Source of the DNA: a virus
Virus record (IMG/VR): IMGVR_UViG_3300045999_003964
Coordinates: 1-27,159 of that record
DNA: 27,159 nt
Reading direction: 5' to 3' (one strand)
Shown here: positions 10,865 through 25,159 of the stretch, one piece after another
Layout of the letters: every line of letters starts with the position of its first letter
Numbering within the stretch: the first letter of the stretch is position 1
Translations under genes and position numbers: made by a program
Notes under the pieces: generated by a model
Seen by the model: only the letters and a program-made list of their open reading frames with translations
Databases searched by the model: none
Told to the model about the DNA's origin: nothing

Positions 10865-11809
10865 TCAGTTGCTCCTGCTTCGTGCCTCTTGGGCGTAACG
10901 CTTGATCATGTTGGCCCGCTTCTGGGGGTCATCCCAGTAGCCTCCATCTTTCATCGCCCTCACCTGTTCTGGCGAGAGTACGAAAGTTGAGCGGCTTGAG
11001 CCGGCACCGACCTCACGTCCCGATCCCGTCACCACGCTTCGGGGCCTACTCCTTCGAGAATGGTCATCGACGGAGTCAGTATAGCGATGCGGCAGGCGCT
11101 TTTGTAAACGCCTGTCGAGCTCCTCCCAGTAGTCTTTCGACGACGGGTCCCACCCCTCCTCGGTGAGTTTGCGGTCGATCACCTTGGCGATCGCCGTGTC
11201 CTCATCATTGCCCGACGGGTCGTACCAGTCATGGCGCTCCATCCAGGAGTTGGCCAGCCGCGTCACGCTCGGGTTCACGGCGCCCTGCTGCTGCTGGGTG
11301 GCCTGCGTCGCACGCTCCTTGAGGTTCTTCATCGCCTCGATCTTGCGACGCGACTCGTACCACATCTCCTGCGCTCGGACCATCGTCGCACCGTCACCGG
11401 ACGACGTGGCCTCCTGCAGCTTCTGGGAGGCGTAGCGGAAGCGAAGCTCCTCGTCCTCGATGGCCTTGTCCAGCCGGGCAAGATCGGACGACTGCGTCTT
11501 GCGCTCCACCACCGACAGGCGCTCCATGAGCTCCTGGTTCTGGCGCTGCAGCATCTGCAGGCGTTGATCCTTCTCCTCGTTGGTCCGCCGCACCAGTTCC
11601 TTCTTGGCCCGGCGGCGGTTCCTGCGGGCCTCGCGGACGGCGTCGGAGTCCCCTGGCCTGTCCACGTCCCCGCCGTCGTCTCCTGCGGCCTCCTGGGCCC
11701 CTTCCTGGGCATCTTCGGGAGGGGCGAGTTCGTCGGGGAGGTCGACGACAGCACTGCCGTCCTTCTCCTCGACAACGTCGATGTGATCTTCTTGCTTGTC
11801 GGTGCTCAC
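10865..11809 (-). CDS. Probable capsid scaffolding protein (314 aa)
   Basis: Very acidic N-terminus (EDHIDVVEEKDG, DELAPPEDAQEGAQEA), then a long charged coiled coil at about residues 60-170 (ARRNRRRAKKELVRRTNEEK, LQMLQRQNQELMERL, DEELRFRYASQKLQEA). A helical middle (NSWMERHDWYDPSG, DRKLTEEGWDPSSKDYWEEL) is followed by a basic Ser/Arg tail ending in an ordered LSPEQVRAMKDGGYWDDPQKR helix. This acidic-coil-basic layout just before the capsid gene is typical of internal scaffolds, whose C-terminus binds the shell. The GTG start overlaps the preceding TGA (GTGA), with GAGGG 7 nt upstream. No protease is seen. Assignment rests on architecture and position. Confidence 0.6.
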   Translation of the reverse strand: MSTDKQEDHIDVVEEKDGSAVVDLPDELAPPEDAQEGAQEAAGDDGGDVDRPGDSDAVREARRNRRRAKKELVRRTNEEKDQRLQMLQRQNQELMERLSVVERKTQSSDLARLDKAIEDEELRFRYASQKLQEATSSGDGATMVRAQEMWYESRRKIEAMKNLKERATQATQQQQGAVNPSVTRLANSWMERHDWYDPSGNDEDTAIAKVIDRKLTEEGWDPSSKDYWEELDRRLQKRLPHRYTDSVDDHSRRSRPRSVVTGSGREVGAGSSRSTFVLSPEQVRAMKDGGYWDDPQKRANMIKRYAQEARSRSN

Positions 11810-12240
11810 AGGAAGGCCCTCATTTCCAGCGGGTTGCCGGTGACCTTGGCGATCACCTCGTGGTCGTTCAGGATGCTGAACAGCGCCGGGTCTTCGAGGT
11901 CATCCTCGCCCGGAACCTTCACCTCCCAGCGGTCGCCGCCCCACTTCGGGACGCGGATGTAGTCGCCCGGCTGGCACCAACTGCCCTCCGGCCACGGCTC
12001 CATCGTGTCGCGCTTGCGGAACGCCAGCGGCCCGATCTCGATGACCTTGGCCACCATGTTCTGCCACTTCTCCGTCTCCTTGGTCTCGCTGACCAGGATG
12101 ATCCCCGCCTTCGTTGCCTTCCTCTTCGCGCGGCGCAGTTGCACCAGAATGCGCCCGCCCAGAGGTTTCGCGCCAGGGTCGACGCTCGGGAATGCCCAAG
12201 CCATTTCGGCGTCGTCAAACGCCTTGCCCATCTCGCTCAT
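11806..12240 (-). CDS. GroES-like co-chaperonin (144 aa)
   Basis: A phage-encoded cap for GroEL-type folding, probably for the capsid or another large virion protein. The GroES fold is visible: PLGGRILVQLRRA near residues 26-38 (first barrel strand), a mobile loop ATKAGIILVSETKE near 42-55 with the hydrophobic IIL that should dock into GroEL, then VAKVIEIGPLAFRKR and CQPGDYIRVPKWGGDRWEVK (about 89-108). The protein is longer than bacterial GroES (about 97 aa), with N- and C-terminal additions. The ATG lies inside the end of the preceding gene (26-bp overlap), and it ends in a GTGA overlap with the scaffold. No GroEL gene is in view, so the host chaperonin is presumably used. Confidence 0.82.
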   Translation of the reverse strand: MSEMGKAFDDAEMAWAFPSVDPGAKPLGGRILVQLRRAKRKATKAGIILVSETKETEKWQNMVAKVIEIGPLAFRKRDTMEPWPEGSWCQPGDYIRVPKWGGDRWEVKVPGEDDLEDPALFSILNDHEVIAKVTGNPLEMRAFL

Positions 12241-15116: not shown

Positions 15117-18100
15117 TTATGCCAGAGCGCCCTGACGAGTGACCTCTCCGCCTTCCTTCTTGACCGTACGGACGTCAGGCATCGGCGCACCCTTGAAGTA
15201 CGGCATCAGCACGCCGCGCCCCGTATCGATCATGTCCAGCAGGTACTCGCGCACGGCCTTCGGTGTCGGGTTGATGCCTTGGCCTTGCAGCGTGTAGGCG
15301 GTCTGCTTTTCCAGCAGATCCAGCGCGTCGCCGCGCGGTGACTTCAGGCCAGTCAGTTCGCCGCCGCCGAACCACCTGCCGGCCTGGGCCGTACCGCCAG
15401 GAATGCCCATTTCATTGGCGATGTCGAGCATTTTGCTCTCTGCCAGTCCGTACTCCGTCGGGCCGAACCCGCCTTGCTCGGTGAAGTAGGGGTGGAACCT
15501 GCTTCCCTGCGTCTGTCCAGCCGCCTCATGGACGTCCAGCACGACACTCTTGCCGAAGTCTCCAGCCTTCTGCGTGCCGTAGGTCGGGATCTTGTAGTTG
15601 GTCGGGATGTCGGCCTTCAGCAGATCCCGCATGTTCAGCCCGCCCTCGATGACGTTGCGCACGCCCTCTCGATGCACCGGCATCAGCGGCAGACCCGTCC
15701 CATACTGCTGCTTGAACTTGGCCATCTCGGCGGTGACCGTGGCCTCATCAAGCGGCAAACCCCGCGCGTTCATGTCGCGCAAGAACTGCCCCACGGCCAT
15801 CTCGTTCATGATCGAGTTGCGCGCGCTTGCCGGTGCCGTCTGATAGACGAACTGATCGAACTTCTCGGCGGGAATGCCGCGCTCCAGTGCCGCCATCTTC
15901 AGCGGGTACAGCGACGCATAGAACGTCTCGCCACCCAACGGTAGGCCGCGGCCGATCTGCTGCTTGATCAGCGCGCGATTGGCCGGGTCGTCGTAGATTT
16001 CGTTGATGTAGTCGGTCTGCGCGCGCGGCGCCTCGTACCGCGGGAAGCGCGTCTGCTCGATGCCCGGGAAGCCTTCCATCGCCTCCTTGATCATCGCTCG
16101 GTCGAACGCCTGCTTTTCAGGAGGCGGCGGCGTCCACGGTTCTGTGGGCTTGCTCAAGAACTCCCTGGCCTTCTCGGCGCGTTCCGCCACCACCTCGGGG
16201 GCGTTGCGCAGGCGCCTGGGCGCCGGCATGTCATACGACGACGGCGACAGCTCCCCGTAGGTCTTCTGCAGTTCAGGGCGGGTTTCGCGCTCCCACTTCA
16301 GGCGCGCCAGCACCTGCCGTTGCGCCCGCGAGGCCACCTCCTGCTCCGTCAACTTGGGCGCGTCCTTGCTGATCGCGGCCGCGCGCTCCAGCATCATCTG
16401 CCGCACCGTTTCGGGCTTGGCATAAGGGCGCGAACGACCCTGCGCAAGCATCTGATTGGCTTGGTCGATGGCAGACGTCAGCGACGGCGGCGGAGCGGCT
16501 TCCAGGGCCTTCTTGGCGGCTTCTTGGGCAGCCTTCTCTGCCAGCCGACCCTCTGCTCGGGCCGCAGCACGTGCAGCCGCCCCGGCCGCACCCTTGGCCG
16601 CGCCGCCGGCAGCAAAGGTCGGCTCGATGCGCTCCTTGTTCAGACCGTTGATGTAGTCCTCCATCTCCTTGAGCATCTGGCGACGCTCAGGCGAGATGCT
16701 CGGGTGCTCCCGCAGCAGCTTCGCCCCCGTCATGGCGCGCGGCAGCCCAGCGCCCACGAACGCCGCACCGGCCCCACGCCCGGCCGGCACCCGTTCTGCC
16801 CCCTGCGCCATGCCCTGCATGATCAGACCAGGGATGTCCGCCGCACCCGCAGCCGGCAGCGTAGCCGCCTCGTCAGGCCGCACCCGTGCGCTGCGGGGCG
16901 CGATGTTCGCCCCCTGCACGCCCCTCGCAGCAGGATTGGCTGCGGACGGCCCACGGCCCTTGTCCGCATTCAGGAGGTCGCGCAGCGTCATCTGCGCGCC
17001 GAACTGGCGCCGGAAGTCGGCGAGCTCTTCAGCACTCACCATCGTCCGGCCGTCGACCACCGGCCGATTGGGCAGCGGGCCGCTCCAGGTCTTGCGCATC
17101 CGCACCGGCTCGGGCTTGAACAGGGCGTTCTGCGCCGAGCGCCTCTGACGCATCTGGCGCTCCGCCGCCTCGTACAGGTCGCCGCCCTCGTTCATCAGCA
17201 CCGCCCCGCCGGCCTTCATTTGCGCGTCCGACATCCGCAGCGCCATCGTCATCGCGCGGTCAGGGTCAACACCCTGGCCGACCAACTTGCCGGCGATCAC
17301 GTCCGCCGCTTGCGTGTAGCTCATGCTTCCTCCAACAGGCCCGCCTTGGGCCTTCTTTGTGGGCAGCTTCTCTTCGTTGCGCTGCAGGATGGTGAGGTTC
17401 TTCTCCTCGCCGGGGAAGACGACGAAGTTGCGGGTGCCTTGACCGGCGGCGCGGCTTCCCTCGTCAAGATACTTGATGCCAAGAATGCCCATGCCCTGGA
17501 ATTCGCGAGACGCTCCCTCGGGAGACAAGAATTTGGCAAACGTCTCGTAGGCATCCCGCCCAGTCAGCCGGCCCTCATTGCGCGCACCAGCCTTGAAAAG
17601 CAACTCCTCGGCGTTCAGCGCCTCAATAATTGAGCGGCCAATCTCACCCTGCTGCGCGAGCGGCTTGTCCCAGTCAAGCATCTTTTCGATCATCGGATCC
17701 GGGAGGTCGACGGTATATAGGGCGCCGCCTTCTGGCTTGTATTGCATGGCCCTGAGAAGGCTCGCGGCTTCGTCGTGAATCTTCGTGGCGTCATCCATCC
17801 ACGTCAATTCCCCACTCGCCGCGTCGAGGTCGCCCTTCTTTTCCTTCAGGGTTTGATATGCCAGCGCTGCAGATTCCTGAGAATAACCCTGGCCTTTGGC
17901 CGCGTCAGAAAACGTCTTCCACTCCGGCGACCCACCAACGATTGACACATCCTTGCCGCCAAGCAGGAACACGTTGGGATTCTTGCCGGTCAATCGCTCG
18001 CGGTATCCAGTCGCCACCTCTGGCGCTTCCGCCGTGTAGGTTCCAACCCCATACGCCTGAGCGCCCTCGCCCGTGCCAATCTTCTCTGACCGGAACCTCC

Positions 18101-19682
18101 CAAGGGGCGCGCCCTCTTCAGGAGCAAAGGTGTGCGGCGAACCGTGGTACACCGTGGCCAAAGCCGTCGTAGGCCCCTGCCGCTCAACGTCCTTCAACTC
18201 CGAGATGGGGACGTCATAGCTCTCTTCTGGAAAGGTCGCGCGGCGCTGCTCTGCAGTCATGCCTGCGCGCGCCTCTACAGCCCGCGCCTCCGCCTCTCCC
18301 GGGGTTCTCAAGTATTGCTGCGTCGGCGTAAGCTCCGCCTTGCTTGTCTCGCGATTCAACGCGCTTGTCACGTCCTCGCCAAGCATCCACAGTTGCTCTT
18401 GACTCTTTGGGGGCTCCAAGCCAGCGGCTTTGGCGGATTGTCTTAAATCCTCCCATTCCGATTTTGGCAGACGGGTGTTGAAGTCAAGCCCGTCAATAAT
18501 CGATTGCGTGAATTCATACACATCACCAGAGAGCGATATGTCACTTGGCCTCAAGTCGGCCGGCCCGCCGAGTTTTGCGGACAAATTCGCAAACGCATTG
18601 AACGCTGCGCGCTGCTCTGGCGTCTGCTTGAACTTGTATTCGAACATATCCGGGTTTGCGCCAGCGCCAAACCCTTCGCGCTCTTGAATCGGGTGCTGAG
18701 CCTCATGAAGCGCCGTCTTTTTGGTCGCCCCGCGGCCAAGGGTAATTTCCTCGGGCAAAACGCCGAAGCCAGCAAAATGTGACGACTGACCAGTGGGATC
18801 CACCGTCATCCGCATCGACTGCAACTCAGGGTAGGCGCGAAACAACTCTGGATGAGACAGGACTTCAGCGACTGTCTTTGCCTGCGGGTCGGGAGTGAAG
18901 CGAGCTTCAACATCGCTGATCTCCTGCCGCCACTGCCCATCAGGCGCCCGCCAGTTTCCAGTTTGCGACCAGATGTCCCGCGGGTCGGCGCCGGCCTTCT
19001 CCATCTCCACCGCGCGCACGTTCGACGCAGCGTCCCAGGTCTTGGCGCTCTTGCCGATGAAGATGTCGGGCATCATCCCGGCCCGGCGCATGTACGCCTC
19101 GGCCATCTCGGCAGCCTTCGGGCCCAGGCTCTGCACCGTCGCCTTGCCCGCCTTCGCCGCCCCGCGCCCGGCCGCAGCAACACCGCGCGCCGCCGGCCGC
19201 GCAGCAGCACCCGCCCCCAGCAGGTTCAGCGGGTCGGCCAGCAACTCTGCCCCAGTGGCCAGCAGCGGAGAGCCCGTCGCCCTCAGCGTCGCCTCGCCGG
19301 CAGCCTGGGGGATCGCCCCCAGCGGCGACAGGCCCTCGGCAATGCCCCTGACGGCCCGTATGCCGCCTTCTGTCTTCGGGTCGATGGTCAGGTAGTCCTG
19401 CACCCTCTGAACGGCGTCTGCGGCCTTCTCGGGGCCCTGCCCGGCGCCCAGATACCCCAGGCCCGCCAGACCAGCAGGGATGCTCCCCAGCACGGCCGAG
19501 CCGATCGTCTCCAGCGCCTCGCCGCCACCGCGCTGAGTGCGCCGGCCCGGGCTCGACGTGCGGAACGACGGACGCGACGCAGCGGCCAACTCAGCCGCCG
19601 TCGGAGGAACCTCCTCACGCCGACGGGTCGGCTCAGCCGTCCCCGCCAGCACTCGCCGAAGCTCCTCGTCCATCAGGTCCAT
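15117..19682 (-). CDS. Large polyvalent protein with HExxH (LPD23-like) and ADP-ribosyltransferase-like domains
   Basis: A 1521-aa multidomain protein. The N-terminal 190 residues are Ala/Gly/Arg-rich with hydrophobic segments (SAVLGSIPAGLAGLGYLG). At about 322-340 comes ATKKTALHEAQHPIQ, an HExxH zinc site, with a TPGEAEARAVEARAGM motif near 462, as in LPD23-type domains. ATVYHGSPH (near 510) and EKIGTGEGAQAYGVGTYTAE (near 533-552) match polyvalent-protein ART domains, ending near residue 770 (ARNFV-like FVVFPGEEKNLTILQ). The remainder is Ala-rich helical linker plus a C-terminal domain with VLDVHEAAG, GPTEYGLAESK and WFGGGELTGLK (about 1380-1440). I start at the ATG 19682, 5 nt after GGGAG; a GTG at 19688 is less likely. 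Such proteins are thought to be ejected with DNA and to act on host defences; that role is inference here. Confidence 0.75.
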   Translation of the reverse strand: MDLMDEELRRVLAGTAEPTRRREEVPPTAAELAAASRPSFRTSSPGRRTQRGGGEALETIGSAVLGSIPAGLAGLGYLGAGQGPEKAADAVQRVQDYLTIDPKTEGGIRAVRGIAEGLSPLGAIPQAAGEATLRATGSPLLATGAELLADPLNLLGAGAAARPAARGVAAAGRGAAKAGKATVQSLGPKAAEMAEAYMRRAGMMPDIFIGKSAKTWDAASNVRAVEMEKAGADPRDIWSQTGNWRAPDGQWRQEISDVEARFTPDPQAKTVAEVLSHPELFRAYPELQSMRMTVDPTGQSSHFAGFGVLPEEITLGRGATKKTALHEAQHPIQEREGFGAGANPDMFEYKFKQTPEQRAAFNAFANLSAKLGGPADLRPSDISLSGDVYEFTQSIIDGLDFNTRLPKSEWEDLRQSAKAAGLEPPKSQEQLWMLGEDVTSALNRETSKAELTPTQQYLRTPGEAEARAVEARAGMTAEQRRATFPEESYDVPISELKDVERQGPTTALATVYHGSPHTFAPEEGAPLGRFRSEKIGTGEGAQAYGVGTYTAEAPEVATGYRERLTGKNPNVFLLGGKDVSIVGGSPEWKTFSDAAKGQGYSQESAALAYQTLKEKKGDLDAASGELTWMDDATKIHDEAASLLRAMQYKPEGGALYTVDLPDPMIEKMLDWDKPLAQQGEIGRSIIEALNAEELLFKAGARNEGRLTGRDAYETFAKFLSPEGASREFQGMGILGIKYLDEGSRAAGQGTRNFVVFPGEEKNLTILQRNEEKLPTKKAQGGPVGGSMSYTQAADVIAGKLVGQGVDPDRAMTMALRMSDAQMKAGGAVLMNEGGDLYEAAERQMRQRRSAQNALFKPEPVRMRKTWSGPLPNRPVVDGRTMVSAEELADFRRQFGAQMTLRDLLNADKGRGPSAANPAARGVQGANIAPRSARVRPDEAATLPAAGAADIPGLIMQGMAQGAERVPAGRGAGAAFVGAGLPRAMTGAKLLREHPSISPERRQMLKEMEDYINGLNKERIEPTFAAGGAAKGAAGAAARAAARAEGRLAEKAAQEAAKKALEAAPPPSLTSAIDQANQMLAQGRSRPYAKPETVRQMMLERAAAISKDAPKLTEQEVASRAQRQVLARLKWERETRPELQKTYGELSPSSYDMPAPRRLRNAPEVVAERAEKAREFLSKPTEPWTPPPPEKQAFDRAMIKEAMEGFPGIEQTRFPRYEAPRAQTDYINEIYDDPANRALIKQQIGRGLPLGGETFYASLYPLKMAALERGIPAEKFDQFVYQTAPASARNSIMNEMAVGQFLRDMNARGLPLDEATVTAEMAKFKQQYGTGLPLMPVHREGVRNVIEGGLNMRDLLKADIPTNYKIPTYGTQKAGDFGKSVVLDVHEAAGQTQGSRFHPYFTEQGGFGPTEYGLAESKMLDIANEMGIPGGTAQAGRWFGGGELTGLKSPRGDALDLLEKQTAYTLQGQGINPTPKAVREYLLDMIDTGRGVLMPYFKGAPMPDVRTVKKEGGEVTRQGALA

Positions 19683-19691
19683 CGTCACTCC

Positions 19692-19874
19692 CTAGTGCGG
19701 CTCATGATGCACCCAGACCTCGTTCCCGGTCTCAGGGTCCACGTACTCCAGCCTCGGACAGCACCAGCACAACGGCGACGGCAGGTGCTCCGTCGCCTCC
19801 TGCCCGCGGTCGAGCATCACGTGCTTCTCATACACCGGCCATACCCGCCCGCCGGGTATCTGCTCACGCTGCAT
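19692..19874 (-). CDS. Small protein with Cys pair (60 aa)
   Basis: The ATG at 19874 lies inside the end of terL and has GGGAG 7 nt upstream. The product begins MQREQIPGGRVWPVYEKHVML, contains LCWCCPRLEYVD with clustered cysteines, and ends WVHHEPH. The CxCC plus terminal His cluster suggests metal binding, perhaps a partial zinc knuckle. A longer in-frame version from 19967 would translate Arg-rich sequence shadowing terL, so I prefer the short form. No family was recognised. Confidence 0.55.
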   Translation of the reverse strand: MQREQIPGGRVWPVYEKHVMLDRGQEATEHLPSPLCWCCPRLEYVDPETGNEVWVHHEPH

Positions 19875-22113
19875 AGGGATTCTCCCGCTTTGCCCGCCCG
19901 GTGTCTGCGTAGTCGTCTTCGTCCCAGTCATCCTGCGGCGGCGGGTCAACCTCCAGCCATCCCGCATCGCGAAGGAATCTCAGCGCCTGCGTCAGTGTAT
20001 CCACCAGATCATCGTTCGTCGTATTCGGAAACGCGCACACCTGCGAAACCAGCGGCTCCGCCCAGTCCCGCACATACCCAGGTCGCTGCGAACTCTCGGG
20101 AATCCACACCCGCCCCCGGGCAATGATGTGCGACACGATGTTCAGGCGCTGCAGCTTGTCCGCCTTCCCAGGGTTGTACGCCCGCACCGGCAGGTGAGCA
20201 CGCTGCAGGTCCTGGATCAGCGAGATCCCCGCCGACTTGTCCTCGATCAGGATCAGATCCACCCGCTTGCGGTCCCGCCCGTCCACCCCGGACTCGAAGA
20301 CGGTGTCGTACTCGTCCACCACCTTCGGCCGCAGATCAGGATACTGCAGCCGGTCCTGCCAGCAGTCGATCAGCATCACGCTCATCGGCCCGTCCTCGGG
20401 CTTGAACACGCCCCAGGTGCTCGACGCCGTCGGGTCGTTCTGCGTCTTCTCCGACGTCGCGCAGTCGTAGCTCTGCAGCACGTACTCGAACTTCGGGAAC
20501 GCCTTCGCGTGCGACCAGAGCTTGAAGTGCCCTCGCTTGACGATCCCGCCCTCCTCGGGGTCGATGATCTCAGCATGGATCTCCTGCCGGCCGAGCGTCG
20601 TGCCCTCGTACTGCAGGATCTGCTTCTTGAAGTTGGCCGACAGGTTGCCCAGGTTGGCATAGGTCGACGCCCGCGTCACCACGACGTCGTCGCCCTCCCG
20701 CCCGATCAGTTCGATGATCAGGTCCTTCGGCTTCGGCGTCGTCGTGATCACCGTCTTCGTCTGCGCCCCCAGGCGCACGCCGAACTGGATCTGGTCCCAC
20801 GACTCTTGGATGTAGTCCCAGGCAGCGAGCTCGTCGCAGTTATGGACGACGATGCCGTTGGCGATGAACTCGTGCTCGCCCTCAACCGTCAGGTTGTACG
20901 TCGCAGCGTTGGGCAAGCGTTCGACGCGGCGTACCGCCAGCGGGTTGACTGCGATAGGTGCGCACCTTGGATCGGTTGTTGCACGCCCGGCAGCAGTACC
21001 GCTGGAAATGCTTCGTCGCGATGTACGCTCCCCGGCAAACCTCACAGGCTCGTTGCTCGGGCTCGAACACGTTGCGCCGCCACCGCTCCAAGCAGTCGCG
21101 AGAACAGAAGGAACCCACCCGCCCAACGGCCAAGGAGACAAACCCGGCGCCGCATTGAAGGCAGCGCCCATCCTTGGGAGTGCGCAGCTTGGCCAGGGTC
21201 GCCGAAGCAGCAGCCTTTTGAGCGGCCGTCGCCGGCTTGCCGGTCTGGTGCATCCGGTTGTGCTCAGCCCGAGGCATTGCCTCAAGGTTCGCAGGGTCGT
21301 TGTTGCCAGGGTCGCCATCCCGGTGATGAACCACCCAGCCAGCCGGAATCGGCCCATGATGCCGCTCGTAAATGACCCGATGCGCGTACCTGCCGCCGAT
21401 GTACTTGTAGCCCATACCAAAGCGCCTTCCTTGACGTCGCCAGCAGCCACCCACTGGTCGCCCACCAGTATGGGATGGTCCTCCGTCACCGTCAAGCTCG
21501 TCTCGCCACAATCCAGCCTCACCAGATCCGCGGGATTGCCCGACGGTCCAGCCGCCAGCACTTGCCTGGGGCCATGCCGGGTCAGCACGACATCACCAGC
21601 CCGCAGCGTCTCGATTGGCCGCTCTCCGCCCGGCGTGGCGATCAGCGTCCCCGGGATGCAGCACCAAGCCCCGTGGAACTGCGGCCCCCGGAAGCGCTCA
21701 GGCTCCGACGCCGGGATGCCCTTGATCAGCGACCCGTTCGTCAGGCGGAGCTCGTGCAGCGCCTTGTTGTACTCGGCGATCAGCGGCGCAGGGATCACGC
21801 TCATCAGCCCCGAGTCGCCCTCGAAGCACGTCCCCCGCACGTCAGACGACGTCGGCGCCGCCACCAGCCAGCGCGTCCCCGGGTTCTCCCAGGCCCACCA
21901 CCCCACCTGCTCTGCGGCCGTTCTGGTCTTCCCAGCACCCCGCCCGGCCAGCATCAGCCAGATCGACCACCAGTCCCCCGACGGCAAGACCTGATGCCCG
22001 TGCGCCTGCTGCAGCCACCGGGCCCGCCACAGGTACGCCAGCCTCTTGTCCGCCGGCAGCGCCTTCAGCGCGCCCCGGACGTCCGGCGCGGCCAGGGTCT
22101 CAGCGAGGTTCAC
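19864..22113 (-). CDS. terL: Terminase large subunit precursor with intein
   Basis: The ATPase/nuclease that packages DNA into proheads. The 749-aa open frame includes about 475 residues of terminase and a 275-residue intein. The ATPase shows Walker A LAGRGAGKT near 55-63 and an adenine-side segment upstream; Walker B becomes HGAW-CDELAAW only after intein removal. The nuclease half has SYDCATSEKTQNDPTASS (about 548-565, first acidic site), DLILIEDKSAGISLIQD (about 619-635, second) and NDDLVDTLTQALRFL (about 700-714, third), typical of Terminase_6C-type nucleases. The GTG start follows GAGG at short spacing. Without splicing, Walker B would be disrupted, so activity depends on the intein. terS lies 2.5 kb upstream rather than adjacent. 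Confidence 0.92.
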   Translation of the reverse strand: MNLAETLAAPDVRGALKALPADKRLAYLWRARWLQQAHGHQVLPSGDWWSIWLMLAGRGAGKTRTAAEQVGWWAWENPGTRWLVAAPTSSDVRGTCFEGDSGLMSVIPAPLIAEYNKALHELRLTNGSLIKGIPASEPERFRGPQFHGAWCCIPGTLIATPGGERPIETLRAGDVVLTRHGPRQVLAAGPSGNPADLVRLDCGETSLTVTEDHPILVGDQWVAAGDVKEGALVWATSTSAAGTRIGSFTSGIMGRFRLAGWFITGMATLATTTLRTLRQCLGLSTTGCTRPASRRRPLKRLLLRRPWPSCALPRMGAAFNAAPGLSPWPLGGWVPSVLATAWSGGGATCSSPSNEPVRFAGERTSRRSISSGTAAGRATTDPRCAPIAVNPLAVRRVERLPNAATYNLTVEGEHEFIANGIVVHNCDELAAWDYIQESWDQIQFGVRLGAQTKTVITTTPKPKDLIIELIGREGDDVVVTRASTYANLGNLSANFKKQILQYEGTTLGRQEIHAEIIDPEEGGIVKRGHFKLWSHAKAFPKFEYVLQSYDCATSEKTQNDPTASSTWGVFKPEDGPMSVMLIDCWQDRLQYPDLRPKVVDEYDTVFESGVDGRDRKRVDLILIEDKSAGISLIQDLQRAHLPVRAYNPGKADKLQRLNIVSHIIARGRVWIPESSQRPGYVRDWAEPLVSQVCAFPNTTNDDLVDTLTQALRFLRDAGWLEVDPPPQDDWDEDDYADTGRAKRENPYAA
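20839..21663 (-). mobile_element. Intein within terL, inserted at Walker B
   Basis: The intein spans terL residues 151-425. Block A is CCIPGTLIATPGGERPIETL followed by RAGDVVLT (Cys1 then Thr at +5). Block B is TSLTVTEDHPILV with the TxxH-like motif. Block F/G is ATYNLTVEGEHEFIANGIVVHN followed by Cys+1. Removing Cys151 to Asn425 joins HGAW to CDELAAW and restores a perfect terminase Walker B, which fixes the boundaries. The first of two adjacent Cys residues is therefore Cys1. In the terL frame, about 150 residues between blocks B and F (roughly 233-388) read as Ser/Arg/Trp-rich non-domain sequence, while an HNH gene occupies another frame there. Confidence 0.92.
20882..21415 (-). CDS. HNH homing endonuclease nested out of frame in the terL intein
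   Basis: A 177-aa HNH nuclease in the -1 frame relative to terL. It begins MGYKYIGGRYAHRVIYERHH; the core is PAGWVVHHRDGDPGNNDPANL then MPRAEHNRMH, giving the His-His, Asn and distal His of the ββα-metal fold in about the first 55 residues. Two zinc-knuckle-like pairs follow: CLQC...FCSRDC and CEVC...CCRAC. It has its own ATG at 21415 with GGAAGG 9 nt upstream. The frame opens further upstream to 21511, but there it overlaps block B of the intein and reads as low-quality sequence. It ends inside the C-terminal splicing block. It probably drives intein homing. Two compensating frameshifts that moved an in-frame domain out of phase are an alternative. Confidence 0.85.
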   Translation of the reverse strand: MGYKYIGGRYAHRVIYERHHGPIPAGWVVHHRDGDPGNNDPANLEAMPRAEHNRMHQTGKPATAAQKAAASATLAKLRTPKDGRCLQCGAGFVSLAVGRVGSFCSRDCLERWRRNVFEPEQRACEVCRGAYIATKHFQRYCCRACNNRSKVRTYRSQPAGGTPRRTLAQRCDVQPDG

Positions 22114-22210: not shown

Positions 22211-22551
22211 ACGGGCACTCCCTCGATCGGGGATGTCGGCTTCTGCGGCATCAGCGCCTCAACCATCAACTGCATGTGCCGGGTGTTGTCGTCCAGCAGA
22301 GCATGGATGTGCGGCCGGTAGCCCCGCATCTCTTGGTGATACCTCTCGGCCACCTCGGACGCAGCAGCCAGTCCGATCTGCAGCACCGGCAGCACCTCGG
22401 CCTTCAGGGCGTCCAGTTTCGCCTGCTCGCGCCGCCGCACCTCCGCCACCAGCCGGTGAACCCGGCCGACGAACGACTGCGGTTCGTCCTTCATCCGGTC
22501 GGACGCCTGTAGGCTCCAGCCCATGAACTCGGCAATCTCGGCATCAGTCAT
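22207..22551 (-). CDS. Uncharacterised protein (114 aa), MazG-module/terminase neighbourhood
   Basis: The ATG at 22551 overlaps the preceding TGA as ATGA; a longer frame to 22809 shadows the upstream gene. The product begins MTDAEIAEFMGWSLQASDRMK, which looks like a small helical head. A long helix follows (VHRLVAEVRRREQAKLDALKAE), then VLQIGLAAASEVAERYHQEMRG, then a polar end. It has no cysteines or catalytic signature. It belongs to the same translationally coupled run as the transglycosylase and transporter genes, and the next recognised gene is terL. Function unknown. Confidence 0.65.
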   Translation of the reverse strand: MTDAEIAEFMGWSLQASDRMKDEPQSFVGRVHRLVAEVRRREQAKLDALKAEVLPVLQIGLAAASEVAERYHQEMRGYRPHIHALLDDNTRHMQLMVEALMPQKPTSPIEGVPV

Positions 22552-23000
22552 TCCTTGGCCTCCACCGCCTTGATGGCCCGGCTCGCAACCGAGTTGATGT
22601 CGATCAACGCGGCGTACACCATCGCCCCGTCCACGGTGAAGCTGCGGATCTTCTTCACCGCCTGCAGCAGATCGTCGCGCTGAGCGGTCAGCGCCGCCAC
22701 CTCCTCCGCCAGCGGCTTGGACTGGGGCGGGGCAAGGTAGAGGAGCGCCCCCATCGGCAGGTCGCGCAGCAGATGCACCATCTTGATGGGCTCCCCTGGC
22801 GCCTGCCACTGCCCGTTGTACCCGCGCCAGACATCGCTCTGCGTTCCGACCGCCGCCACCGGCTCATCCTGCTGCGCCAGTGCGGCGCGGAGTGCGTATT
22901 CCACGTCTCTCACTGGACATGGGCCGGGAAGCCCCCGGTGCGTGGCATAGACCTCCAACGCCTCCAGCGCCTGCTGGGCGGCGGTTCTCAGGTCGTTCAT
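22548..23000 (-). CDS. Uncharacterised coiled-coil protein (150 aa)
   Basis: The ATG at 23000 overlaps the transporter stop as ATGA. The protein has an N-terminal helix (MNDLRTAAQQALEALEVYAT), a CPVRDVEYALRAALAQQ segment, a middle DLPMGALLYLAPPQ stretch, and a C-terminal coil (LAEEVAALTAQRDDLLQAVKK). This layout recurs in Ea22-like or DUF551-like phage accessory proteins, which have no known activity. It is coupled to the transporter gene upstream and to the 114-aa gene downstream. Confidence 0.6.
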   Translation of the reverse strand: MNDLRTAAQQALEALEVYATHRGLPGPCPVRDVEYALRAALAQQDEPVAAVGTQSDVWRGYNGQWQAPGEPIKMVHLLRDLPMGALLYLAPPQSKPLAEEVAALTAQRDDLLQAVKKIRSFTVDGAMVYAALIDINSVASRAIKAVEAKE

Positions 23001-23488
23001 GCCGCCTCCATCCGCCGCCGCAGCGGCTGTAGCGCCCAGGCCCACACCGCGCCACCGGCCACCTTCGCCACGAACTGCAGCGCCACGATGTGCGGCATCA
23101 ACGCGCCGAAGGCCAGCGTCGGGAATACCAGAGAGTCCACTGCCGCGCCGGCCGCGTTCGAGGCATTCGACCTCGCCAGCCATGACCCTCGCATCCTGGC
23201 GAACACCCCCCAGTCGACGACCGCCGCCGCAGTGAAGGCGACCGAAGAAGCCACTGCGATCATCCCCGCTGCCGGGTTCAGCACGTACGTCAACGCGCCC
23301 GTCCCAATGATCAGGGCACCCATCTGCCACACCCGCAGGCGGACATGCAGCAGGTCGCGCAGCGCCAGATCTAGGCCGATCAGGAGGAAGGCATTGATCG
23401 GAGACACCCACGGGCCGAGAACGGCCACAGACAGGTTCGCCAGCACCATGGCCGCTGCGTAGGCAATGATCGCGATCATCGGGGTCAT
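22997..23488 (-). CDS. yhhQ: Queuosine-precursor transporter, YhhQ/VUT family
   Basis: An integral membrane protein of 163 aa with about five or six hydrophobic segments. Diagnostic stretches are MVLANLSVAVLGPWVSPINAF (first helices), INAFLLIGLDLALRDLLHVRL (about 31-51), VLNPAAGMIAVASSVAF, and the family signature RSNASNAAGAAVDSLVFP (about 106-123) followed by VALQFVAKVAGGAVWAW. This RSNxSN...VDS pattern is typical of PF02592/YhhQ, which imports preQ0/preQ1 or queuine across the inner membrane in E. coli. It is shorter than the bacterial protein (about 220 aa), as in phage versions. The ATG overlaps the dpdA-like stop as ATGA; the upstream in-frame extension shadows that gene. Confidence 0.82.
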   Translation of the reverse strand: MTPMIAIIAYAAAMVLANLSVAVLGPWVSPINAFLLIGLDLALRDLLHVRLRVWQMGALIIGTGALTYVLNPAAGMIAVASSVAFTAAAVVDWGVFARMRGSWLARSNASNAAGAAVDSLVFPTLAFGALMPHIVALQFVAKVAGGAVWAWALQPLRRRMEAA

Positions 23489-24162
23489 ATCAACTCCACT
23501 TGCAATGCCATCGGCTTCCATGCCGTCGGCGGGTTCTCTGCATTGATGCGCTTGGCCATGCAGCTGGCGCACACCCTCTGCTCTGCATGATGCAGCGCAA
23601 CATTGGTGCTGTCCGCGCTGGACAGCGGCCACCGTTCTGTTCCCTGGCCCAGCATCCGCATCCCGTGCGTCCACGGCAGTCGGCCAAACTTCCGCGCCAG
23701 GGCGTTGAATGCCTCGTCCATCCTGCCGGCCCAGGCCGGCCCGCCAACCTGCCAATACTGGCCCGACGACCCCAGCGCAACGCGCCCCCAGCCGTCCACC
23801 AGTTCCAGCAGGTAGTCGATCGGCAAGCCGAGATGCCAGACAGGCATCCCCAGCGCACGCGGGAATGGCCACGTCTTGACCATCTCGCGCTGTTGCTCGA
23901 CCGACCCGTCGATCACATCAGGCACCACGCCCCAGTGCGGGTGCGCCAGCAGCGGGTCGACCCACTCATAGAACCCGTTGAGGTTGAACTCCGCGCCGCG
24001 GGTCTTGGCAGAGAACGCGCCGTTGTCCAGCATCAGGGACTGCCCGATGCGCAAGCAGGTCTTGAGGCTGTCCGGCCGGGCAAAGCTCACGCAGAAGTGC
24101 TGGCCGGCCATCGACTCCAGCGCCAGCTTCGGCGTGATCGGCGTGCCGTGGAAGTGAATCAC
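23485..24162 (-). CDS. dpdA: DpdA/TGT-like 7-deazaguanine DNA transglycosylase
   Basis: A 225-aa TIM-barrel enzyme related to tRNA-guanine transglycosylases, expected to swap guanine for a 7-deazaguanine base, probably in DNA. Barrel landmarks are HFCVSFARPDS (22-32), SLMLDNGAFSA (42-52; Asp46 where TGTs have DSGGFQ), WGVVPDVIDG (77-86), PVWHLGLPIDYLLELV (107-122), GRVALGSSGQYWQVGG, GRLPWTHGMRMLG (160-172) and PLSSADSTNVALHH (179-192), where Asp184 is a candidate nucleophile. CASC near 198-201 with nearby His may bind zinc. It is shorter than bacterial TGT (about 375 aa). The GTG start has GAGGAG about 7 nt upstream. It heads a chain of ATGA-overlapped genes including yhhQ. The gene symbol is by resemblance. 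Confidence 0.75.
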   Translation of the reverse strand: MIHFHGTPITPKLALESMAGQHFCVSFARPDSLKTCLRIGQSLMLDNGAFSAKTRGAEFNLNGFYEWVDPLLAHPHWGVVPDVIDGSVEQQREMVKTWPFPRALGMPVWHLGLPIDYLLELVDGWGRVALGSSGQYWQVGGPAWAGRMDEAFNALARKFGRLPWTHGMRMLGQGTERWPLSSADSTNVALHHAEQRVCASCMAKRINAENPPTAWKPMALQVELI

Positions 24163-24181
24163 TCATGCTCCTCATAGGTTC

Positions 24182-24240
24182 CCCAAGGGTGACAGCACCT
24201 GTCACTCCTCGCCCGGTCTTGCGACCCAGCGCACCCTGGG
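24182..24240 (-). promoter_or_regulatory. Possible structured RNA leader of the dpdA-yhhQ genes
   Basis: On the minus strand, CCCAGGGTG (24240-24232) can pair with CACCCTTGGG (24191-24182) as nine base pairs with one bulged U, enclosing a GGUC-GCAA-GACC hairpin with a GNRA loop (24226-24215). Alternatively GTGACAG/CTGTCAC (24205-24189) forms a 7-bp hairpin that competes for three of the same bases. Two exclusive folds 20-80 nt upstream of the GTG could regulate translation. I do not recognise a known preQ1 riboswitch class. Confidence 0.35.
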
Positions 24241-24415
24241 GGCGGCGATTCACTCGATGCGGGGCTCGTCGTCACCTTGGCCCCCGCGTCTTGCCCAGTC
24301 CCTCGCCAACAGGCTGGACGGCCCTCCCGGGTGGAGGGAGGCCGGTGTTTCCCGGGTGCGGTCCATGCAGACCCATTTGCTAACGCGCCCTGACGGCCGG
24401 CGCAGAAACGACGAA

Positions 24416-24480
24416 GCCCTTGACCATCCTCCCGGTGAGAACCCCGGACTCGCGGCCGGGGCGGAAGGATGGGCAAGGGC
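24416..24480 (-). other. 65-nt hairpin element with 14-bp outer stem
   Basis: Outer arms GCCCTTG and CAAGGGC pair over 7 bp; after one mismatch CCATCCT pairs with AGGATGG over 7 bp. Inside, CCCCGG/CCGGGG (24442-24447 with 24456-24461) forms a second stem with an 8-nt loop. It is too short and lacks T-arm and anticodon features for a tRNA. It could end terS transcripts, although no U-tract follows, or form a cruciform or RNA element. Confidence 0.5.
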
Positions 24481-24556
24481 TCTGAATGTCGGTTCTCACG
24501 CCAACGGGACGCATTCTGCAGGCTCCGTCAGCGGCTGTCAAGCGCCGCAGCGAGGT

Positions 24557-24683
24557 ATAGGAAATCCCAATGACGCCCCAGGCCCCGCCACCAGCCCAAG
24601 CGGTCTCAGCCCGGGATTTCCGCATCCCCCCAGCACCCGACCAAGGGTTTACCCTGGCTCCAGCCATAGGAAATGCCTATGAC
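24557..24683. repeat. Pair of 18-bp direct repeats flanking an inverted core
   Basis: ATAGGAAATCCCAATGAC (24557-24574) and ATAGGAAATGCCTATGAC (24666-24683) match at 16 of 18 positions, 109 bp apart. The core GGAAATCCC also occurs inverted as GGGATTTCC at 24613-24621, between them. The right copy overlaps the end of terS. Spaced copies of a half-palindromic site suggest binding by a phage or host protein such as a repressor or the terminase; this is inference. Confidence 0.6.
24644..24681. repeat. Three abutting dyad-symmetric sequences at the end of terS
   Basis: AGGGTTTACCCT (24644-24655), GGCTCCAGCC (24656-24665) and CATAGGAAATGCCTATG (24665-24681) are each inverted repeats and lie back to back. 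The last spans the terS TAG stop at 24677-24679. Together they could form a run of short hairpins at the 3' end of the terS mRNA or a protein-binding array. Confidence 0.5.
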
Positions 24684-25159
24684 TCCGACGCCTGACGCTT
24701 CATCTGGGCGTTCTCTAGGATCGCCTGGAGCAGCTTGTCGGCGTGAACCTCCGCCTCCAGTTTGATCGGGTTGTCAGCGTCGCCGGCCACCTGGACCCTC
24801 TCACCGTAGGCTTTCGGCTTGAGCTTGCTGGCGACCCACTTCCTGGCGTCGACCCTGTTCTTCTGCCACGCCACCCAGGCAGAGTCGATCCGAGCCACGC
24901 CCTTGTCGTCCACGACCATCTGCGGCTTCTCGTCCGCCAGCGCCGTGATCTGCGCCGCCAGCGTGTCCGCCTGATCCTCCCGCGCACGCGCGTACTGATC
25001 CGCGAACTCGGGCCGCGCCTTCAGCCACTGGTACACCGTCGAGACCCCGATGCCCTCTGCGGCGCATATGGATGGGAGTGCTTCGCCGTTGGACAGGCGG
25101 GCACAGATGGTGGCGGCGATCTCTGGCGTGTACGTGCTGGGGCGTCCGGTCTTGGGCAT
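24677..25159 (-). CDS. terS: Terminase small subunit (Sf6 gp1-like)
   Basis: A 160-aa DNA-recognition subunit that brings phage DNA to the large terminase. The N-terminal MPKTGRPSTYTPEIAATICAR is followed by a helix-turn-helix (LPSICAAEGIGVSTVYQWLK, about 28-47). A central helical segment for oligomerisation follows (EFADQYARAREDQADTLAAQI), then RVDARKWVASKLKPKAYGER (about 102-121), which closely recalls Sf6 gp1 and related small terminases, and a C-terminal tail for TerL contact. AGGAG lies 6 nt before the ATG. It precedes the repeat-rich gap and is separated from terL by four genes, an uncommon arrangement. Confidence 0.85.
   Translation of the reverse strand: MPKTGRPSTYTPEIAATICARLSNGEALPSICAAEGIGVSTVYQWLKARPEFADQYARAREDQADTLAAQITALADEKPQMVVDDKGVARIDSAWVAWQKNRVDARKWVASKLKPKAYGERVQVAGDADNPIKLEAEVHADKLLQAILENAQMKRQASES

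Follow-up and report, generated by a model that had tools for sequence, protein, structure and literature searches.

Organization of the locus between the terminase genes

The window, as we call the whole stretch of DNA analysed, is a linear virus record of 27,159 bp and represents a fragment. On its minus strand, a terminase small subunit gene (TerS) is followed by a 514-bp stretch, a DpdA-like gene, a VUT gene, two small genes, and a terminase large subunit gene (TerL), which places the two-gene cassette between TerS and TerL:

24677..25159, minus strand: terminase small subunit (TerS), upstream neighbour of the cassette (Pfam Sf6_terminase, 8.4e-35)
24163..24676, minus strand: 514-bp leader between TerS and the cassette, no assigned gene
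24163..24172, minus strand: Shine-Dalgarno-like AGGAG directly upstream of the dpdA-like GTG start, sequence AGGAGCATGAGTG
23485..24162, minus strand: DpdA-like, putative 7-deazaguanine DNA transglycosylase, 225 aa, GTG start (PHROG 887, 4.4e-40; hhalign to 9g DpdA, 7.5e-10, and to MED16 DpdA, 5.9e-53)
22997..23488, minus strand: VUT/YhhQ-like six-helix membrane protein, predicted transporter, 163 aa, ATG start (PF02592, COG1738)
22548..23000, minus strand: 150-aa protein, function not assigned, ATGA overlap with the VUT stop
19864..22113, minus strand: terminase large subunit (TerL) with an intein, downstream neighbour of the cassette

An earlier note on this DNA had placed two directly overlapping open reading frames, with motifs of DpdA/TGT enzymes and of YhhQ/VUT proteins, at positions 22997-24162. 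Both frames and their motifs were found there, and the overlap consists of 4 bp (ATGA) shared by the DpdA stop and the VUT start. A VUT start at the GTG of a longer, 291-aa frame was considered and rejected; the true start is the ATG at 23488. A second ATGA overlap joins the VUT stop to the start of the next gene at 23000, whose 150-aa product is absent from the related loci examined. The pN/pS ratio of both cassette genes, measured against closest relatives with about 80-90% protein identity, was 0.13-0.23. We therefore conclude that both ORFs encode proteins maintained by purifying selection. GC content at third codon positions (GC3) was 0.86 and 0.85 in the two cassette frames and 0.88 in the capsid gene. 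The leader contains one σ70-like promoter match (24541-24513, 10 of 12 positions, a match to the consensus only), and an Rfam search that included preQ1 riboswitches gave no match in the leader or elsewhere in the window, where no tRNA was found either.

Of the structural relatives, MW202545 (capsid 89%) and Caulobacter phage RW (78%) are the closest; the ties to Caulobacter phages hint at an alphaproteobacterial host. In MW202545, TerS and TerL are separated by 476 bp, and no DpdA match was found in either genome. In this lineage, the cassette is thus an accessory insertion. In Caulobacter phage RW, two TerL-like genes are arranged in tandem, with an annotated methyltransferase gene between them (L237, 17117-19919); since this methyltransferase has no Pfam support, the idea of a shared anti-restriction slot near TerL was dropped.

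Several other features of the window were recorded. An intein at about residues 151-425 of TerL interrupts the WCDE motif, and the two extein parts match the intact TerL of MW202545. Nested in the intein, and read in another frame, is an HNH_3 endonuclease ORF (20882-21511, minus strand; 4.5e-20). The TerL frame remains open here, and GC3 is low in both frames, as in recent foreign DNA. A 1523-aa ORF with an LPD23 polyvalent-protein domain (15117-19688, minus strand), located between TerL and a portal-like gene, has no match in the compared stretches of MW202545 and phage RW, and a GroES-like co-chaperonin (11806-12240, minus strand; Cpn10, 3.6e-6) is common to the window and these two relatives.

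Sequence and fold of the two cassette proteins

The DpdA-like protein carries the landmarks LDNGAF (D46), PDVID (D82), VWHL (H110), THGMRML (H166), and SADSTN (D184), whose Asp and His residues are invariant among 34 relatives. Pfam and NCBIfam searches with the protein gave no meaningful match, but it matches PHROG 887 (4.4e-40). When the alignment of the 34-member family was compared with characterised phage enzymes by hhalign, it matched the DpdA of phage 9g with an E-value of 7.5e-10 and that of phage MED16, over nearly its full length, with an E-value of 5.9e-53; an HMM built from the same family recovered DpdA in the 9g genome (E 1.2e-12). Residues D72, H196, and D215 of the 9g enzyme align with the invariant D46, H166, and D184, respectively. 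The conserved His at 9g position 196 is missing from DpdA2 (Hutinet et al., PMC6884629). The window protein therefore combines the traits of a phage DpdA, namely homology to the 9g enzyme, an H196 equivalent, two catalytic Asp residues, and a TGT-like TIM barrel.

Structural comparison was conducted with an AlphaFold model of pLDDT 77, in which most residues after position 170 score under 60. With Foldseek, nothing significant was found in the PDB (the best match, a transaldolase, had an E-value of 0.019), and PDB sequence searches returned chance matches only. VIA matched the model to Cap10 (Cap10-CdnD-NDG structure 9ntn, Z 13.8), arcTGT (Z 12.9), and Zymomonas mobilis TGT (Z about 12), the matches to TGT, arcTGT, and Cap10 covering 204-215 residues at Z of about 12.0-13.8. 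A profile check that could have placed the 225-aa protein outside the TGT superfamily placed it inside, as the earlier note had proposed; together with the TGT-type fold, this confirms that it is a compact DpdA of the TGT/DpdA superfamily.

Homology to the 9g and MED16 enzymes indirectly supports DNA as the likely substrate of the protein. The enzyme could instead act on host or phage tRNA and sustain queuosine-type modification, with the transporter feeding that pathway. Databases name the family "queuine tRNA-ribosyltransferase", the TGT fold is common to both groups, and genes of the Q pathway (QueC) are present in hosts. However, the Pfam TGT model matched none of the 34 family members, and no Cys that could serve a TGT-type zinc site is invariant in their alignment, so assignment to the tRNA-guanine transglycosylase class was rejected. 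Given also a length of only 225 aa, and the fact that the closest of the characterised enzymes compared is the DpdA of a phage with modified DNA (MED16, PMC8306585), we consider action on tRNA improbable. A protein target is suggested by the top VIA match, since Cap10 of type IV CBASS is a TGT-family enzyme remodelled for protein (PMC11996544); by analogy, the window enzyme might handle protein-attached 7-deazaguanine and perhaps hinder host immunity. The lead of Cap10 over arcTGT in Z is small, however, Cap10 acts together with the QueC-like Cap9, no such partner gene was found in the window or its relatives, and the sequence ties of the family are with DNA-modifying DpdAs. This reading is very improbable, and both tRNA and protein are less likely targets than DNA.

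The second protein contains the RSNASN..VDS motif, with S110, N111, D118, and S119 invariant among 45 relatives, and matches Pfam Vut_1 (PF02592) with 42.1 bits (1.5e-10), above the curated cut-off of 27.2. The claim that it belongs to the VUT/YhhQ family thus stands. The scores against the NCBIfam YhhQ equivalog models were well below the cut-offs (22.4 versus 252 and 22.3 versus 50.95 bits). Most of the 45 relatives match the same two models as the window protein (43 and 41 members). An AF2 model of high quality (pLDDT 94) shows six helices; Foldseek gave no significant PDB match, and VIA revealed an ECF S-component-like fold (Z up to 11.6). E. coli YhhQ (COG1738, PF02592) has in common with the window protein the Pfam family, the SN...DS motif, and the six helices, but the window protein is 163 aa long, compared to the 221 positions of the YhhQ model. 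Since the Pfam cut-off was passed and the equivalog cut-offs were not, we regard the protein as a superfamily member whose substrate is deduced from the family. Import of preQ0 or preQ1, as the earlier note had it, is therefore consistent with PF02592 membership, while assignment as a YhhQ equivalog did not hold.

Linkage of the two genes and the search for biosynthesis genes

IMG/VR was searched with the DpdA and VUT proteins separately. At viral loci found through DpdA, VUT adjoined it in 72 of 78 assessable cases and was absent in six; at loci found through VUT, DpdA was present in all 67 assessable cases. Both gene orders occur, the reverse order being observed in five loci. Seven viral loci with full flanks and no VUT are close kin, with RusA-like or other genes replacing VUT. 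By eye, Dcm-like methyltransferases are seen upstream of DpdA in five VUT-less loci (L037, L038, L039, L042, and L048), and a PAPS-reductase-like protein downstream of DpdA in some of them. Both genes are also located within about 0.6 kb of each other in the cultured phages Pam5, RHph_X2_30, Flyfo Tbat1_6, and PEAT2, among whose pairs two VUT subtypes can be distinguished by length and alignment. The main text of the Pam5 paper does not discuss the pair.

A scan of genome contigs with single sequences revealed no loci, and an alignment-based scan revealed 77. In these bacterial-genome relatives, VUT was adjacent to DpdA in 13 of 68 assessable loci and not adjacent in 55. On a tree of 105 DpdA proteins, the linkage label requires about 13 changes, compared to 34.5 in shuffles, and at least seven of these changes are forced by well-supported branches. 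This count indicates repeated gain or repeated loss of the pairing. In the window's clade 32 of 33 members are linked, a proportion that is biased towards linkage since the tree includes loci retrieved with DpdA as well as loci retrieved with VUT.

With models of QueC, PTPS (QueD), and FolE, no match was obtained in the window, in the four cultured phages that bear the pair, or in 22 related contigs that are 20 kb or longer (possibly incomplete); phage 9g, used as a positive control, matched all three. A PTPS match in Caulobacter phage DMCA, which has no VUT, was below the cut-off. The absence of genes from a linear fragment of 27 kb such as the window gains weight only from the relatives; the lack of folE, queD, and queC that had been claimed for the window is borne out there and extends to these relatives and the cultured phages. 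A preQ0 biosynthesis cluster of QueC, QueD, and FolE was thus found in neither the window nor its relatives. The number of phage sequences that contain the pair but are apparently unable to make the base is well above a hundred, which gives the pair the look of a small, standard anti-restriction kit. The first reading of this locus was correct as to the superfamilies and the missing biosynthesis genes, but missed a widespread pairing that was repeatedly formed or lost.

Several known systems resemble the pair in part. Singleton DpdA phages (group 3 of Hutinet 2019; Pantoea phage MED16, Salmonella phage 7-11) likewise have DpdA without preQ0 biosynthesis genes, and the MED16 DpdA belongs to the same protein family as the window DpdA (E 5.9e-53). 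However, a VUT gene was looked for in MED16 and not found, whereas in the window a transporter gene overlaps that of DpdA and the transporter is conserved across the clade. In phage EC151 (Seuratvirus; PMC8310023), DpdA and a predicted preQ0 transporter are in one cluster, as here, but phages of this type also encode FolE, QueD, QueE, and QueC, while QueC, QueD, and FolE were not found in the window. About 9% of bacterial dpd islands (dpdA-K) have YhhQ (PMC11888242), with DpdA near YhhQ in some; the window contains a two-gene unit, with no DpdB/C or restriction operon seen beside it. DpdA-only phages, described in 2019 and the largest class of that survey of deazaguanine phages, had uptake proposed as one source of the precursor, the question of its origin being left open, and some phage YhhQ proteins were noted with "no correlation" to any group (PMC6884629). 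What appears to be new, although earlier notice is possible, is a DpdA lineage with a near-obligatory transporter, whose gene overlaps that of the enzyme in the window. Such a lineage would provide a concrete, testable answer to the precursor question for part of the DpdA-only class, and a pair of genes that is easy to express when modified guanines are to be introduced into DNA.

Precursor supply and the proposed role of the pair

We consider it probable that the two overlapping genes constitute a minimal salvage-and-insert cassette for 7-deazaguanine in phage DNA. The VUT protein, in the inner membrane of the host, would make more of a 7-deazaguanine base available in the cell, preQ0 or preQ1 being the most likely cargo. 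The DpdA would then exchange selected guanines of phage DNA for the imported base by a TGT-type covalent mechanism, with D184 as the predicted nucleophile, D46 as the acid/base, and H166 serving as in other DpdAs. The resulting mark would probably be sparse dPreQ0 or dADG, and may shield sites from host restriction. In MED16, which has no biosynthesis genes, dADG was detected in virion DNA by LC-MS, but only about 0.13% of G was modified and most enzymes tested still cut the DNA (PMC8306585). Since MED16 DNA remains sensitive, protection may be motif-specific or aimed at particular host nucleases, and we are less sure of nuclease resistance than of the modification.

A strong QueC match was present in 44 of the 49 host genomes tested, which are hosts of prophage relatives. 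Most hosts could thus supply preQ0, and import is probably a supplement; salvage, which the earlier note had taken as the route to the precursor, agrees with the missing phage QueC and FolE but is probably not the only source. The same result could mean that DpdA mainly uses host-made preQ0 and that VUT has a side function (another base, or host fitness), the two being unrelated morons packaged together. Many relatives have no VUT, and MED16 DNA is modified in the absence of any transporter gene (PMC8306585), as expected from this alternative. It is nevertheless rather improbable, given that the pairing is repeated, that either gene may come first, that two subtypes of VUT take part, and that in the window the genes overlap by 4 bp.

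Within the favoured reading of a salvage-and-insert cassette, the pair might go further and be a self-contained mobile cassette that scavenges bases from the community to mark phage DNA, independently of host synthesis, perhaps with a base foreign to the host; this extension we regard as somewhat unlikely. Among the 13 hosts of VUT-linked relatives, 4 had no strong QueC, compared to 1 among the 36 others (one-sided hypergeometric probability of about 0.014, calculated by hand and uncorrected for kinship). Four of the five genomes without strong QueC, including three of the four VUT-linked ones, are MAGs, and the contrast is only a hint of host-independent scavenging. A rule that would confine VUT to hosts lacking YhhQ was sought and not borne out, as some VUT-linked hosts have a PF02592 protein of their own. 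In several Rhizobiales genomes (G025, G027, G030, and G032; loci L161, L163, L166, and L168), a PF02592 gene is located within about 1 kb of QueC.
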